A stretch of 64,000 nt of DNA from Sphingomonas horti. Lineage in GTDB: Bacteria > Pseudomonadota > Alphaproteobacteria > Sphingomonadales > Sphingomonadaceae. Position numbers and translations under genes: made by a program. A model generated the notes under the pieces. The model was not told where the DNA came from. It saw nothing but the letters and a program-made list of their open reading frames with translations, and ran no database searches. This document shows, in pieces, positions 43,253-50,901 of the stretch; position 1 is the stretch's first letter, and each line of letters opens with the position of its first letter. The stretch is taken from positions 186,001-250,000 of the forward strand of contig NZ_WQMS01000006.1 in the NCBI RefSeq assembly GCF_009753715.1, read 5' to 3'.

Positions 43253-44023
43253 TCAATTCTCCTTCAGCGCGCTGCGGATCAGCCGCTCATAGGTGCGCCC
43301 GACCCGCACTTCGGTGCCGTCGTCCAGCACCGCCGTCAGCGAAGCGAATTGGCCGCGGCGGAAGCTGCGCAGCCGGCGCCGGTGGATGATCGCGCTGCGG
43401 TGCACCCGGATGAAGCTCGCCGGGTCGAGCCGCTCGGCCATCGACGCCAGGCTCTCGTGATAGAGGAACGAGCGCTGGGCCGTGTGCAGCCGCGCATAGT
43501 CGCGCTCCGCCTGGATCCAGACGATGTCGATCGCCGGAACGCGGAACGTTTCGCCGCGCGACGTGACCCAGAAGCAGGCATCGGTGTCGGCGCGCTCCTT
43601 GAGCTCGCCGCGCAGGGCCCCGACCACCGTGCGTAGCTCCGCCAGTTGCTGTTCCTGCTGCTGCCGCGCGATCACGCCGCGCGCGCGATCCACCGCCAGC
43701 GCGAGGCGATCGAAAGCGACCGGCTTCAGCACATAGTCGACCGCATGGGCGTCGAACGCTGCGATCGCATATTCGTCGAAGGCGGTGACGAAGACGATTG
43801 CCGGCGCCGATCCTTCCAGCTCCGCGAGCAGGTCGAAGCCGCTGCCGTTCGGCATCTGGACGTCGAGCAGCAACAGGTTCGGCTTCAGAGCCGCGATCAA
43901 GGCGCGGCCGTCGCGAATGTTACCGGCTTCGCCAACCACCTCGATCCGGTCGAGCGGCGCCAGCGCGCGCCGGATGCGCCGTCGGGCGAGCGGCTCGTCA
44001 TCCAGGATCAGCGCTCGGATCAT
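43253..44023 (-). CDS. LytTR-family response regulator
   Basis: 256 residues. Receiver domain with ALILDDEPLARRRI, phosphoacceptor Asp54 in LLLDVQMPNGSGFDLL, VFVTAFDEYAIAAFDAHAVDYVLKPV; LytTR DNA-binding domain from about 150 (FWVTSRGETFRVPAIDIVWIQAERDYARLHT, FIRVHRSAIIHRRRLRSF). Its ATG overlaps the stop of the LytS-type kinase upstream (ATGA), so they form a cognate pair. Confidence 0.95.
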   Translation of the reverse strand: MIRALILDDEPLARRRIRRALAPLDRIEVVGEAGNIRDGRALIAALKPNLLLLDVQMPNGSGFDLLAELEGSAPAIVFVTAFDEYAIAAFDAHAVDYVLKPVAFDRLALAVDRARGVIARQQQEQQLAELRTVVGALRGELKERADTDACFWVTSRGETFRVPAIDIVWIQAERDYARLHTAQRSFLYHESLASMAERLDPASFIRVHRSAIIHRRRLRSFRRGQFASLTAVLDDGTEVRVGRTYERLIRSALKEN

Positions 44024-45162
44024 CCCGGCCTGAACCTCAGCGGCAGCGAGACGGTGGCGCGGAAGCGCCCGTCGGGCAGGTAGCCGCCAGTCAGCCGTCC
44101 CGCCTCCCCGAACCGCGTCGCAAGCCGCTCCGCGACATTCTTGAGGCCCAGGCCGGTGCTCGTCGCCGGGCGTGCATGCTCGCTGGCGTCATTGTCGATA
44201 TGGATGCTGAGCACGTTGCGATCGGCTTCCGCGCAGATGCGGATGCAGACGGTGCCGTCGACGGTGCCGATGCCGTGCTTGACCGCGTTTTCGACCAGCG
44301 GCTGCAGGATCAGGCTCGGCATCCGCGCCCGGTTGAGCTCGCCCGGCACGTCCATCTCGACCCGCAGCCGGTCGGAGAAGCGTGCGCGTTCGATCTCCAG
44401 ATAACGGGCCTGGATGTCCAGCTCCTCGGCCAGCGTGATGTCTTGCATCGGGTCGAGCGCCAGCGTCGAGCGCAGGAAGGCGGACAGCGACAGCACCATG
44501 CGCTCGGCCGGCTTGACGTCCTGCTCCTCGATCAGCGTCGCGAGCGCGTTCAGCGTGTTGAACAGGAAGTGCGGATTGATCTGGTAGCGCAGCGCCCGCA
44601 TCTGCGCGCCATAGGCCTGCTCCCGCAGCTCGGAGAGCTGGCGCTCGCGGTCGGTGACCTCGGCGCTGTATTGCTGCGCCAGGAAAAGCGCCGACCAGCC
44701 GAGATAGGCGTCGTTCCAGAACAGGATGCTCCAGAGCATCTCGCCCAGCATCATCGGCGAGGTGTTCCGGTCGGCGAATTGATAGGCGCGGTAGGCGACC
44801 AGCGCATGCGCCGTCGCCACCACCACCACGATCGCGCAGACCAGGATCGCCTTGAAGGCGAAGCTCGGGTTTCGGTAGTGGGTGATCAGCAGGATGATGA
44901 CCCAGCTCATCGCCACCGAAAAGGCGGTCATCAGGCAGCGGATCGCGAATGTCGCCCAGGTCTCCTGGCCGCCCATCAAACCCAGCGTGGTCAGCGCGGC
45001 CAGCAGCACCAGCCAGTACAGGATGCTCATCTTCAGGCCCGCGCGCATGATTCGGGCCTTGGATCGCCACGTGGCGAGGGTGCTCGCGAGGACCGGCCGG
45101 TGCATCGGCCGTTTATCGGCACCCGTATGCGGGTAAGTCGAGAGGCGTTCGTCCGCCGCCAT
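44020..45162 (-). CDS. LytS/YehU-type sensor histidine kinase
   Basis: 380 residues. Four or so membrane segments in the N-terminal half (about 45-165), then His_kinase domain with phosphoacceptor His198 in LRYQINPHFLFNTLNALATLIEEQ, N-box ILQPLVENAVKHGIG and G-box STGLGLKNVAERL. Partner of the overlapping LytTR regulator. The start (ATG 45162) may be downstream, since ATGs at 45105 or near MSILYW also precede the first membrane helix. Confidence 0.92.
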   Translation of the reverse strand: MAADERLSTYPHTGADKRPMHRPVLASTLATWRSKARIMRAGLKMSILYWLVLLAALTTLGLMGGQETWATFAIRCLMTAFSVAMSWVIILLITHYRNPSFAFKAILVCAIVVVVATAHALVAYRAYQFADRNTSPMMLGEMLWSILFWNDAYLGWSALFLAQQYSAEVTDRERQLSELREQAYGAQMRALRYQINPHFLFNTLNALATLIEEQDVKPAERMVLSLSAFLRSTLALDPMQDITLAEELDIQARYLEIERARFSDRLRVEMDVPGELNRARMPSLILQPLVENAVKHGIGTVDGTVCIRICAEADRNVLSIHIDNDASEHARPATSTGLGLKNVAERLATRFGEAGRLTGGYLPDGRFRATVSLPLRFRPG

Positions 45163-45308
45163 TCGCCATTCGCAGAATCGCGCCTGCTTTCGTCCGTGCC
45201 GAATCGCCGTTGATCGAAGCCACGCTACAATCGCCGCATCTGTCGCATCATTCTCTCACGCGGAACGGCAGCGTGAAAGGGTATGCGGTCGTGGGTAGCG
45301 TTCTGGCG

Positions 45309-46649
45309 ATGCGGGACATGGAAGGGCTTGGCCGTTCCCGCGCGCCTGCCTTCCTGCCCGTCGACCTCATGCCGGAACCGCAGGGCGGGCTCTACCAGGG
45401 CCTCTACAAGCGCCTGCGCACCTTCATCCTCGATGGCGTATGGCCGCCGGGCACGCGGTTGCCCTCGTCGCGGACTCTCGCCGCCGACCTCAAGGTCTCG
45501 CGCAACACGGCGATCCTCGCGGTCGAGCAGCTGATCGCCGACGGCTGGGCGGAATCGCGCAGCCGGTCCGGCGTCTATGTTTCGATCCGGCCGGCGGCGG
45601 CGCCCGTGGCGCTGCCGCAGCCGCGGGCGCGCGACGCGGCGGAGCTGCCGCCGTTCGCGCCGGAGCGGCCAGCCGCCGATCTGTTCCCGGCTCAGATCTG
45701 GAAGCAATTGCAGGCGCGGGCCTGGGCGCAGATCGAGCCCGAGCACCTGATCGCTGCCGATCCGGCCGGCGACGCGGTTCTGCGGGAGACGATCGCGCGG
45801 CTGGTCTGCGCGCCGCGCGGCCTGCGCTGCCACCCGGACCAGATCCTGATCGTGCCGACCGCGACGGCGGCGATCGACCTGATCGCCGCGACGCTGCTGC
45901 GTGCCGGCGATGCCGCCCTGGTCGAGGAGGCATGTCGGCCGTCGGTAAGGCATCTTCTCGAAGCGCGGGGCGCACGGCTTCAGGCCACGGGCTGCGACCC
46001 GGCGGAAGCGGCGGCCCGGCTGGCCTGCACCGGCTTTGACGGCGCGGCGCGGCACTGGCTGCCCGGCTGGGCCCGCCAGGGCGGATCGTGGATCGTCGAG
46101 GACGACCGCGACTCCGAACTCTGGTTCGACGAGGCGCCGCCACCGCCGCTCGCAGCCGAGGCGGGCGAGCATGTGGTGCTGGTCGGCAGCTTCAACCGCC
46201 TTCTCTTTCCCGGCCTGTGCGTTGCGTTCCTGGTCGCCCCGCCGGCGCTGGTCGATCCGCTCCGGGACGCACATGCGATCGTCGGCGGCCGGGCGAGCCT
46301 CGCGTCGCAGCTCGCGCTGGAGGCCTTCATCGCCGAGGGACATTTCGCGCGCCACCTCCGCCGCCGCCGCCAGGCCTATGCCGAGCGGCGGGTGGCGCTG
46401 CTCGATTGCCTGGCGGGGATTGCCGACCCGGACCGGGTCAACCGCGCCGGCCTCCACCTCGCGCTGGAGCTTGGCGAGGGGCGCGCCCCTGCGGTGGCCT
46501 CCCGCCTCGCCGCCGAAAGGCTCGGCGGCACGGCTGCGACCGGCTCCCGGCTGCTTCTCGGCCTGGGCGCGACGCCGGAAGCGATCCGCGCCCAGGGCGC
46601 GCGCCTTGCCGCCGTCATCCTGTCCGAACTTTCCAGAGGGCACGCCTGA
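45309..46649 (+). CDS. MocR-like regulator with degenerate aminotransferase domain
   Basis: 446 residues from ATG 45309 (frame open to TTG 45210; start uncertain). GntR winged helix: GLYQGLYKRLRTFILDGVWPPGTRLPSSRTLAADLKVSRNTAILAVEQLIADGWAESRSRSGVYVS. The fold-type I region is reduced: LIVPTATAAIDLIAATLLRAGDAALVEE and WIVEDDRDSELWFDEAP are present, but the usual Pro-x-His-Gln-x-Pro-x-Gly block is missing, and the PLP-lysine motif SFSKTLFPGLR is GSFNRLLFPGLC, with Arg297 for the Lys. So it probably does not form a PLP aldimine. Overlaps the TetR-MucR fusion gene by TGATG. Confidence 0.85.
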   Translation: MRDMEGLGRSRAPAFLPVDLMPEPQGGLYQGLYKRLRTFILDGVWPPGTRLPSSRTLAADLKVSRNTAILAVEQLIADGWAESRSRSGVYVSIRPAAAPVALPQPRARDAAELPPFAPERPAADLFPAQIWKQLQARAWAQIEPEHLIAADPAGDAVLRETIARLVCAPRGLRCHPDQILIVPTATAAIDLIAATLLRAGDAALVEEACRPSVRHLLEARGARLQATGCDPAEAAARLACTGFDGAARHWLPGWARQGGSWIVEDDRDSELWFDEAPPPPLAAEAGEHVVLVGSFNRLLFPGLCVAFLVAPPALVDPLRDAHAIVGGRASLASQLALEAFIAEGHFARHLRRRRQAYAERRVALLDCLAGIADPDRVNRAGLHLALELGEGRAPAVASRLAAERLGGTAATGSRLLLGLGATPEAIRAQGARLAAVILSELSRGHA

Positions 46650-47506
46650 TGTACGCTTCCGAACAGGTCTTTCGCGTGCGCGGCCGCAAGGGCCGCACTC
46701 TGACCACTGCCGGCCGGATCGAGGCCCAGTTCCGCGAGCTGCTGGCCGAGCGTGCGTTCCACCACATTTCGGTCGCCGACATCGCCGACGGCTGCGACAT
46801 CGCGCGATCGACCTTTTACCGCCTCTATGCCGACCCGGTGGAAACGCTCTGGGCATTGGCGCTGCCGATGTTCGAGGCGGCCTTCGACGCGGCGCTGAAG
46901 GGCGACAGCGCCGCGTTCATAGCGGCTTTCGGCAGGTTCTGGACGGTCCCCGGCATGGTCGGCGCCCTCAACAATGCCAAGGCGAATGCGCGCGTGCGGG
47001 GCAAGCTCACGACGCTGGTGCAGGCGCGGCTGCGCCAGCATGGCTGCGGCCGGGGCAGCGAGACCTGTGCGCTGGTGATGGTCGCCGCCTGCCTCACCGT
47101 GCTCGCGCAAGGCGAGGCGGATGAGGCGCCGAACGATGGCGAGCTCGGCGAGCTGATGTCGCTGATCTACATCGCCGCCTATCTGACGCCCGGCGCGCTG
47201 CAGTCTATCGCGCGGCAGCAGGCGCGGCGCGGGCTGCACGGCGGTTTCCCGCCGGCCGTCTCGGTCGAGGAATCGCTCGCGTCCGACGATCACATCATCT
47301 CGATGATCGACGGGCGGCCCTATCGCTCGCTGACCCGGCATATCGCCCGCTACGGCATGACGCCGGCCGATTACCGCCGCTGCTTCGACCTGGAGGATGA
47401 CTATCCGATGGTCGCCGCGAGCTATTCCGAGCGCCGCCGCGCGCTCGCGATCAACGCGGGCTTCGGCGTCCGCCGCGCTGACCAGGGCTGCCCCGCCGCC
47501 GCCTGA
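46649..47506 (+). CDS. Fusion regulator: TetR-type HTH plus Ros/MucR-like domain
   Basis: 285 residues. Residues 15-70 form a TetR helix-turn-helix (TTAGRIEAQFRELLAERAFHHISVADIADGCDIARSTFYRLYADPVETLW) followed by a helical region to about 195. Residues 204-274 follow the MucR/Ros pattern: VSVEESLASDDHIISMIDGRPYRSLTRHIARYGMTPADYRRCFDLEDDYPMVAASYSERRRALAINAGFG. In Ros the finger is C-x2-C-x9-H-x4-H; here the positions hold Ser218, Asp221, His231 and Tyr235, so zinc binding is lost, as in some zinc-free MucR homologues. Two DNA-binding modules in one chain is unusual. Its ATG shares an A with the stop of the MocR-like gene, so both are made together. Confidence 0.82.
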   Translation: MYASEQVFRVRGRKGRTLTTAGRIEAQFRELLAERAFHHISVADIADGCDIARSTFYRLYADPVETLWALALPMFEAAFDAALKGDSAAFIAAFGRFWTVPGMVGALNNAKANARVRGKLTTLVQARLRQHGCGRGSETCALVMVAACLTVLAQGEADEAPNDGELGELMSLIYIAAYLTPGALQSIARQQARRGLHGGFPPAVSVEESLASDDHIISMIDGRPYRSLTRHIARYGMTPADYRRCFDLEDDYPMVAASYSERRRALAINAGFGVRRADQGCPAAA

Positions 47507-47525: not shown

Positions 47526-47545
47526 GTGTTGCAGTCGTGCAACAC
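47526..47545. promoter_or_regulatory. Inverted repeat between the regulator gene and the TBDR gene
   Basis: GTGTTGCA and TGCAACAC are exact inverse complements with a four-base spacer. It lies 19 bp after the regulator stop and 249 bp before the TBDR start, in a 287-bp gap that otherwise holds no gene. No T-run follows, so an operator or a distal promoter element is more likely than a terminator. Confidence 0.4.
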
Positions 47546-47793
47546 GCCGGTTCCAAAAGCACATTTCGATGATTTTCAGCGGCCGAGAAGGGCTGCCCCG
47601 GCCCGTGCCGCACCACCAAGCGCGTATATTAAGCGACTGACAAATAAGGCTTTGTTTGGTCGCTTCGCGCGCCTCCTTCGGCGGCATCCAAACTGGACCC
47701 ATCGGCGCGCCAAGTCTGGTTCTTTCCTCGCCAAGGCCCGCCGCTACCCCCGATCCTGACTGCCAAAGCGCAGTAACAATAAGGGGAATTTGC

Positions 47794-50700
47794 ATGCCTA
47801 CTACCAATTCGCGGCTCCGGACCCTGTTGTCGCTGGGCGCGGCGACCGTGGCGCTGTGCGCCGGCCCCGCCTTCGCCCAGGATGCGACGGCGCAGCAGAC
47901 GGCCGAAGCGGCGCCGGCGGACGAAGGGACGATCGTCGTCACCGGGTCGCTGATCACCAATCCGAACCTTGAGCGCTCGACGCCTGTCAACGTGACCACC
48001 TCGGAAGAAGTCGAGCTGCGCCAGACCAACGTCGCCGAGCAGCTGCTCCGCGAAGTTCCGGGTGTCGTGCCGTCGACCGGTTCGGCGGTGAACAACGGCA
48101 ATGGCGGCGCCTCGTTCGTCAACCTGCGCGGCCTCGGCTCCAACCGCAACCTGGTGCTGCTCGACGGCGTGCGCATCACGCCGTCGAACCAGATCGGGCG
48201 CGTCGACCTGAACAACATCCCGCTCGCCCTCATTGAGCGGACCGAAGTGCTGACCGGCGGTGCGTCGACCACCTATGGTGCGGACGCGGTGTCGGGCGTG
48301 GTGAACTTCATCACCAAGAAGGACTTCACCGGGCTGGAACTGTCTGCCTCGGAGCAGATCACCGAGCGCGGAGACGGCAACATCTTCCGCGTCGACGCGA
48401 CCATCGGCGCGAGCTTCGACGACAACCGCGGCAATGCGGTCTTTTCGATCGGCTATCAGGAAGCGGACCCGGTCTATCAGGGCGCGCGCGATTTCAGCCG
48501 CTTCAACATCAGCGCATTCACCGGCAATGTTGCCGGTTCGGGCACAACCTTCCCGACCCGCTTCTCGGTGCCGGGCCTGCCGCTCCAGAACGTCAATCCG
48601 ACGACCGGCCAGCTGCAGTCGCCGTTCACGGCGTTCAACTTCAATCCGTTCAACATCTTCCAGACGCCATTCCAGCGCTTCAACATCTTCGGCCAGGCCA
48701 ATTACCAGATCACGGACGGGGTCGAGGTCTACACGCGCGGCCTGTTCTCGAAGAACTCGGTTCAGACGATCATCGCGCCGTCGGGTGCGTTCGGCATTGC
48801 GGTGCAGATTCCGGTCAGCAATCCCTTCCTTCCGGCGGGAGCGCGGGCGACCTTCTGCGCCAATAACGACTTCGATCCGATTGCGGACGGAGTGCAGACG
48901 CTGACGCCGGCCGAGTGCGCGGCCGCGGCGGCTGCCACCGATCCGAACGATCCGGCCTATCGCGAATTCTCCACTCAGATCTCGCGTCGCGCCATCGAAG
49001 TCGGTCCGCGCATCAGCCAGTTCCGGACCAATATCTTCGACTACCGGCTCGGCTTCCGTGGGTCGATCACCGACAGCATCAATTGGGACGTGTTCGGATC
49101 GTACGGCGAATCGGAGAATACGCAGTTCATCCAGAACTACACGCTCAATTCGCGCTTCCGGCAGGGCCTGCTGACCACCGTCGATGGCAACGGCAACCCG
49201 ATCTGCCAGGATACGAGCAACGGCTGCGTGCCCGTCAACGTATTCGGCACGATCACGCCGGAGATGGCGAATTTCCTGTCGGCGGAAAGCACGACGCTCA
49301 ATCGCACCAGCCTTGCCCAGGCGCGGGCGACGGTCTCCGGCGATTTCGGGGCCACGCTGCCCTGGGCGTCCGACGCGGTCAGCTTCGCGGTCGGCGCCGA
49401 ATATCGCAAATATACCGCGCTCCAGCGGGGCGACACGCTGTCGGGCTCCGGCGACCTCGGCGGGTCGGGCGGACCGACCGCGCTGGTGGACGGCGCGTTC
49501 GACGTTTACGAAGCCTTTGGCGAGCTTATCGCGCCGATCGTGCAGGATAAGCCCTTCTTCCAGAGCCTGACTTTGGAAGGCGGCATCCGCTATTCGCACT
49601 ATTCCGTCGACGCGCCGAGCCGGCCGAAATTCAACACGACCACCTGGAAGGTCGGCGCCAGCTGGGAACCGATCGATGCGGTCAAGTTCCGCGGCAACTT
49701 CGCGCGCGCCGTCCGCGCCCCGAACATCAACGAGTTGTTCGCCCCGTTGGTTACCGGCCTGACGACGATCGCGAACGATCCCTGCGCGTCGATCGACGAT
49801 GAAGGGGCCATCATCCGACCGGCGCCGACCGGCACGCTCGCTGCGGTCTGCCGGGCGCAGGGTGCCCCGGCCTTCACGCTGGGCTCGATCCCGCAGCCGA
49901 CCGCAGGCCAGGGCAACGCATCGGCCAGCGGCTCGCTGGCGCTGCGGCCCGAAAAGTCGAACAGCTACACCTTCGGCGTCGTGCTCCAGCCTGACTTCCT
50001 GCCGGGCTTCAGCGCCTCGATCGACTACTACCACATCAAGATCAACCGGGCGATCACCGCGCCGACGCCGGGCGATGCCATCCAGGCCTGCTTCGGCGCA
50101 CCGGATGCCAACGGCAACTTCAACCCGGCGGCGGGGGCGGAGACCAGCCTGGCCTGCACGGTCATCCGCCGCAACGCGCTGACCGGCGGCCTGGCCGGCG
50201 ACCCGACCGACACGCCCGGCCTCTTCCTGCCCTTGTCCAACCTCGGCAAGGTCAAGAGCGACGGTATCGACTTCACGATGAACTACAACACCGATCTCGG
50301 CTTTGCGAAGCTGGCGCTCAGCTTTGCCGGCAACTGGTCTCACCACCAGCTGTTCCAGGCAACGGCTTATCCGAACCCCAACAATCTGCCGATCTCGATC
50401 AACCGCGAATGCGTGGGCTATTTCAGCGGCAACTGCGGTTCGCCGGCGGGCACGGCAGCGGATGTGGGCTCCATCCAGCCGGAGTTCAGCTGGACGCAGC
50501 GCACGACGCTGACCTTCGGCAATGTCGATCTGTCGCTGCTGTGGCGGCACATCAGCGCGATTCAGCACGAGCCGGATGACCGCGCGAACGGCAACGGCGA
50601 CTCCTACTCGGGTCCGGTGCCGGGCTCGCAGTCGAACCTGCCGGGAGCGCCGGCTCCGGGATCGTTCGGCACGCACGACTTCAACTTCCTGCCGTCGGCC

Positions 50701-50901
50701 GATTACTTCGACCTGGCGACCAGGATCGGGGTTGGCGACAACCTGACGCTGACGCTAACGGTCGCGAACCTGTTCGACAAGAAGCCGCCCTTCACCGGGC
50801 AGGACGTCGGATCGTCGTCGTTCAACAGCGGCAACGTCTATCCGTCGACCTATGACGCCCTGGGCCGCACCTATCGCGTCGGTGCCCGCTTGCGGTTCTG
50901 A
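47794..50901 (+). CDS. TonB-dependent outer-membrane receptor (large)
   Basis: 1035 residues. Signal peptide 1-28, TonB box-like TIVVTGSLI near 46-54, plug ([101 protein letters not shown]), and a long barrel ending [12 protein letters not shown]. The plug type with [15 protein letters not shown] is the TBDR group often linked in sphingomonads to peptide, oligosaccharide or plant-polymer uptake. AAGGGGAA precedes ATG 47794. Exported M3 and M1 peptidases lie just downstream. Confidence 0.95.
   Translation: [1035 protein letters not shown]

Follow-up and report, generated by a model that had tools for sequence, protein, structure and literature searches.

A TetR-type regulator joined to a zinc-less Ros/MucR finger in Sphingomonas horti and its close relatives

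Described relatives of the two domains

Zinc is not required by all Ros domains. Ml4 and Ml5 of Mesorhizobium loti have lost zinc ligands, which are dispensable there, and these domains fold and bind DNA; the Ml proteins form oligomers by way of their N-terminal region, and the DNA they bind is AT-rich, as reported in PMC9779718. The same report describes members of the Ros/MucR family in which an aspartate is the second zinc ligand (CysAspHis2). Non-standard ligand sets are also reported for Sinorhizobium meliloti (PMC13297338). There, the ligand set of MucR2 consists of Cys, Asp and His with a possible Tyr, proposed and not proven as the fourth ligand; MucR2 keeps the cysteine and binds zinc, and both MucR2 and MucR3 bind DNA. 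The available part of that paper mentions no TetR part in either protein.

Here, we describe a protein of Sphingomonas horti that resembles these systems in its Ros/MucR domain but carries it behind a TetR-type regulator. Like Ml4 and Ml5 it has lost zinc ligands, yet unlike them it has no detectable oligomerisation region and the net positive charge of its finger is gone. The nearest relatives of the finger are zinc-less MucR paralogues from its own bacterial family (L007-L027, L029, L032, L037-L042). In all 29, serine replaces the first ligand as it does here, and the one-residue gap is shared as well; they differ in having a MucR-type N-terminal region before the finger and a core net charge of +4 to +9. 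With TetR regulators such as EthR and the DhaS-type 4mk6/2iu5 the protein shares the HTH sequence and, as predicted, the overall TetR fold, whereas the C-terminal Ros finger is its own addition. A limited literature search (weak evidence, subscription papers and domain databases being outside it) found no description of a TetR-Ros/MucR fusion. The case, in which a finger from a nucleoid protein is grafted on a one-component regulator, is well bracketed by close relatives on either side, the zinc-less donors and the four descendants. It offers a test of what becomes of a DNA-binding domain when a neighbouring domain can keep it on DNA, and of whether regulation by a Ros finger survives the loss of the oligomerisation domain.

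Architecture and distribution of the fusion

The window, i.e. the whole stretch of 64,000 nucleotides that was analysed, carries the fusion gene at positions 46649..47506 of the forward strand. It encodes 285 residues, and its start, MYASxQVF, is conserved in four genomes. The product is one intact protein in which a TetR-type regulator is joined to a zinc-less Ros finger. The TetR-type part spans residues 1-195 (46649..47233, forward strand), with the HTH at about 16-68 and a helical domain to about 190. The Ros/MucR finger spans residues 201-276 (47249..47476, forward strand), with Ser218, Asp221, His231 and Tyr235 at the ligand positions.

The original prediction placed a TetR HTH and a MucR domain in this single frame, the latter over residues 204-274, and the profile searches bear it out. 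PF05443 (ROS_MUCR) matches residues 183-272 with E=3.1e-23 and 82.6 bits, against a curated cut-off of 25.4, and the best match among solved sequences is Ros (2jsp, E=5.2e-15, residues 201-277). PF00440 (TetR_N) matches residues 29-59 with 23.6 bits (E=4.5e-5) in the full chain, missing its cut-off of 24 by 0.4 bit, and a scan of residues 1-188 by themselves brings it to that cut-off. Two NCBIfam TetR models, DhaS (residues 23-67) and MftR (16-68), also match, both far under their equivalog cut-offs. Among the 26 other rows for solved sequences most are TetR-type chains matching within residues 16-89, the rest being weak matches to DNA polymerase gamma. The protein has the N-terminal HTH and the all-helical C-terminal ligand or dimer domain by which the TetR family is recognised, as well as the PF05443 domain. 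That profile has two matches in the genome of S. horti, the fusion and a canonical MucR. Ser218, Asp221 and His231 are also found where they had been predicted, and the zinc-less state stands. Counting Asp221 as a loss does not, since aspartate is a ligand in CysAspHis2 members; what has clearly been lost is the first Cys, replaced by Ser218, and the last His, replaced by Tyr235 with the spacing reduced by one residue.

Structure prediction points to two separate folds, with a TetR fold in one model and a confident finger in another. The first model took three fusion orthologues as input and had an overall pLDDT of 58, with 72-88 at residues 21-130 and less than 50 in the finger. Foldseek gave it eight matches below 0.001, all to EthR (best E=4.1e-4, probability 1.00, about 190 columns), and a TM score of 0.63 (by target) against 4mk6. 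VIA-align compared the TetR part with this same TetR-type structure at Z 12.9 over 170 residues, a range (below about 13) that in helical proteins may reflect mere common arrangement. The second model used 44 sequences, including 41 extra finger sequences; in it the finger is confident (pLDDT 78-91 at residues 201-270) and shows three main helices besides short strands, but the TetR part is poorer. A PDB search with it gave nothing under E=0.001, and the 50 rows listed included no Ros chain. In a viral structure library one row alone was telling, a ROSMUCR protein with rmsd 2.3 over 66 columns (probability 1.00, E=0.65). The two-domain reading stands, on a basis that is chiefly sequence.

The genome scan gave orthologues in Sphingomonas changbaiensis (L003, about 85-86% identical) and in a MAG (L004, 80%), and the family search gave another in genome G081 (71%). 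The full-length fusion is present in four of the six genomes of the genus; G149 and G152 are probably the genomes of L003 and L004, given their equal open-frame lengths. We searched further with a profile of the four fusions at cut-offs from 1e-22 to 1e-32, only six candidates being scored in most genomes. No full-length fusion was found in the other 391 of 397 family genomes (E<=1e-32), in the other 384 of 385 genomes of the class sample (1e-22; one finger-only match) or in the other 395 of 396 genomes of the order sample (1e-30; five partial matches), the three samples overlapping. Among 72,556 plasmid records, 453 had a match and none of these covered 80% of the query. The TetR part alone (E<=1e-7), searched in 149 family genomes, matched in two, both times the fusion itself, and the adjacent MocR gene (1e-60) matched only within the same genus among 99 family genomes. 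Hence, as far as sampled, the fusion is restricted to one genus. We claim this for this fusion alone, since such cut-offs would miss TetR-Ros fusions with unrelated TetR parts.

Origin and divergence of the finger

The usual ligands are Cys, Cys or Asp, His and His; the four fusions have instead an invariant S218, D221, H231 and Y235. Serine at the first position is common to them and to all the zinc-less sphingomonad relatives compared, and 28 of these 29 have aspartate at the second. In a tree with a canonical outgroup the four fusion fingers form one clade (100/100), nested in a set of 19 rows (96/93) in which all other rows are zinc-less. The ligand changes thus predate the fusion, and the loss of zinc ligands is, on the evidence of these sequences, an ordinary trait that is not special to it. 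The 39 domains compared were the best matches to the fusion, without L002, L005, L035, L036, L043 and all loci after L043, and without domains of less than 70 residues; the 29 zinc-less against six canonical domains in such a set give no frequency. The six canonical domains were chosen by the motif CLED and have their Cys and Asp by definition. Each of the two fusion-free genomes of the genus (G150 and G151) has three very similar zinc-less MucR domains (L037-L042).

A long stem (1.1 changes per column) leads to the fusion clade, in which the branches are short. Over six pairs of fusions, dN/dS is 0.05-0.13 in the finger and 0.17-0.35 in the TetR part, so that the finger is the more constrained and conserved half. 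The pattern suggests a finger that changed fast around the fusion event and is constrained now.

Over residues 204-273 the net charge is -2, -1, -1 and -1 in the four fusions, +4 to +9 in the zinc-less relatives and +3 to +7 in the canonical domains. It is +2 to +8 in 41 domains from viral contigs, and +2 to +9 in the 76 other Ros domains taken together. Over residues 203-276 the values are 0, 1, 1 and 1 in the fusions, +7 to +12 in the 29 zinc-less domains and +5 to +10 in the six canonical ones. All four fusions have Glu207 and Glu208 where the zinc-less relatives have Arg (28/29) and Lys (25/29), Thr229 where these have Lys or Arg (28/29), and Cys245 where most have Arg (23/29). All four also keep Arg230, Arg263 and Arg264. 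Mapped by alignment, Thr229 falls on Lys91 of MucR, Arg230 on Arg92 and Arg263 on Arg126. A docking model together with earlier mutagenesis, as reported in PMC11662661, gives these MucR residues contacts with a phosphate (Lys91), a base (Arg92) and the minor groove (Arg126). Since the positive charge of the relatives is lost, the job of the finger has probably changed. The Glu-Glu pair alone is no mark of lost function, since it is also found in L096, a standalone MucR-type frame of 139 residues in a viral contig.

The viral-contig domains used for charge came from 80 loci, out of 153 confirmed, and L096 alone was examined as a gene. Domains of the Ros/MucR type occur in many such contigs (L087-L166): a relative of the finger is encoded by 153 of the 172 stretches taken as candidates, and among the domains listed several lack the first Cys.

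MucR proteins have an N-terminal oligomerisation domain of two helices, which a profile of 120 such N-terminal regions did not detect in the fusions. Run against the four fusions and 200 shuffles, the profile ranked shuffles in all ten best places, and hhalign gave a probability of 0.1 percent. The 120 regions left out L002-L006, L035, L036, L044-L081 and regions of less than 50 residues, and within them L043 repeats L014. We also considered, and rejected, a disguised MucR N-terminal domain before the finger: some MucR matches extend back to residues 101-136, but the 120-region profile gave nothing there. As the oligomerisation domain is undetected, we do not file the whole protein as a MucR.

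The locus and the possible role of the finger

The ATG of the fusion gene shares one base with the TGA of the upstream gene (TGATG). This neighbour encodes a MocR-type regulator, with a GntR HTH and an aminotransferase-like domain (45309..46649, forward strand; start placed by eye in an ORF opening at 45210). Downstream lies a TonB-dependent receptor gene (47794..50901, forward strand), the probable target, and frames read at L003, L004 and L006 have it in the same position. A LytTR response regulator (43253-44023) and a His_kinase-family sensor (44020-45162) are encoded on the reverse strand, divergently from the MocR-fusion pair. The order MocR, fusion, TonB receptor is conserved in four loci (Pfam families were tested for the window only). 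In all four loci the sensor kinase gene comes before the MocR gene; in three of them, the window, L003 and L004, the response regulator was also observed. Among the six genomes of the genus, relatives of the sensor at 58-74% occur only in those bearing the fusion, against 37% at best in the other two.

Three features before the receptor gene keep nearly the same distances to its ATG in four loci. The palindrome TGTTGCA-N4-TGCAACA (47527..47544) is conserved in the four, with a decayed left arm in L006, and its right half starts 255-258 bases before the ATG. The most AT-rich intergenic 40-mer (47618..47657; AT 0.625 against a window mean of 0.327) ends 134-139 bases before it, with differing sequence. 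Its placement has P=0.00075 over four loci and 0.0049 over three, in a post hoc test devised after the pattern was seen. A direct repeat, AACTGGACC-N15-TCTGGTTC (47691..47722, forward strand), is exact only here in the genome; in the form CTGGACC...CTGGTTC it stands 102-104 bases before the ATG in the four loci, and its other matches in its own genome are at control level. The stretch between palindrome and repeat measures 146-147 bases, with a pairwise identity of 34-46% against 25-26% expected by composition. The direct repeat is most likely the site of the MocR protein, a predicted operator, since it resembles the CTGGACYTAA repeats given as the consensus of the MocR-type TauR in PMC5320631.

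With up to two mismatches the palindrome occurs in 15 places of its own genome, against none for the reversed control. With up to one it is found in 19 of 20 sphingomonad genomes (42 places against 5 for the reversed control), including 15 of 16 fusion-free ones, and these matches do not include the copy at the G081 fusion locus. A palindrome so common in fusion-free genomes is not supported as the fusion's own operator, which leaves the fusion without an assignable one; the palindrome may serve some widespread regulator. As for the AT-rich patch, its place is kept and its sequence is not, which would suit a degenerate reader of AT-rich DNA and equally a plain promoter; it may simply be the promoter of the receptor gene.

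Our preferred reading, held tentatively and at a little less than even chances, is that a TetR dimer and the MocR protein control the adjacent receptor gene and that the finger is a weakened auxiliary contact, in a hybrid factor confined, within the genomes sampled, to one genus. Control by the two proteins is inferred from gene order and conserved sites. The TetR part would dimerise, bind a specific site near the cluster and answer a small molecule, and the fusion would act with the MocR protein on the receptor gene. The finger would no longer bind DNA autonomously; it would be a constrained auxiliary domain, most likely contacting DNA weakly and only when the TetR dimer holds it beside AT-rich promoter DNA. 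Such a tethered contact may persist, since Arg230 and Arg263 are kept; yet the loss of charge argues against any binding of DNA by the finger.

The same loss could instead mean that the finger has left DNA and become a protein-contact or allosteric domain, touching RNA polymerase, the MocR protein or the TetR core. This is a real possibility, to which we give somewhat less credence. A core charge outside the range of all other Ros domains compared, the substitutions at 207, 208, 229 and 245, strong purifying selection and the long stem branch would all suit it. But the arginines at the base-contacting Arg92 position of the docking model (PMC11662661) and at the Arg126 position are invariant, and the Glu-Glu of L096 deprives that change of weight when taken alone. 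We therefore favour, narrowly, a weakened and tethered DNA contact over a pure protein-contact domain, and find an autonomous second module less likely.

A bolder version of the tethered contact, which we think rather unlikely, is that a ligand-responsive TetR dimer acquired the part of an H-NS-like silencer that reads DNA and lost the part that oligomerises, and so became a tunable silencer with a local address. Here the TetR part would set the address, and the weakened finger would read the AT-rich patch at its fixed distance from the receptor gene.

The original prediction went on to suggest that the two modules bind DNA independently, bridging two sites or reading a composite operator, and this we consider doubtful. 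Two modules of unrelated origins do share one chain, and palindrome, AT-rich patch and direct repeat do lie at nearly fixed distances in four loci. Yet the palindrome also occurs in genomes without the fusion, the 120-region profile detected no MucR oligomerisation domain, and the net positive charge of the finger has disappeared, with threonine at 229 and an Arg-Lys arm that is now Glu-Glu. Hence, the fusion and its zinc-less state survive from that interpretation, and the bridging of two sites is weakened.

The idea that a frameshift error or a missed gene boundary merged two genes near residue 195 finds some comfort in the marginal TetR_N match, but it can be dismissed: the window and the three orthologues (about 85, 80 and 71% identical) have single uninterrupted frames through that residue in four assemblies, dN/dS is low on either side of the junction, and the fusion recurs in four of the six genomes with its gene order kept.

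Minor observations concern other sequences around these genes. The palindrome was also located at G000:C23:102161-102178 and G000:C5:51529-51586; judged by eye, one copy sits next to a dnaJ-like gene, in the gap between divergent genes, and two weaker ones precede an ntrY-like kinase gene. In all four loci a stretch close to GTCGAAGCCACGCTACA is present between the sensor kinase and the MocR gene (45163-45308).
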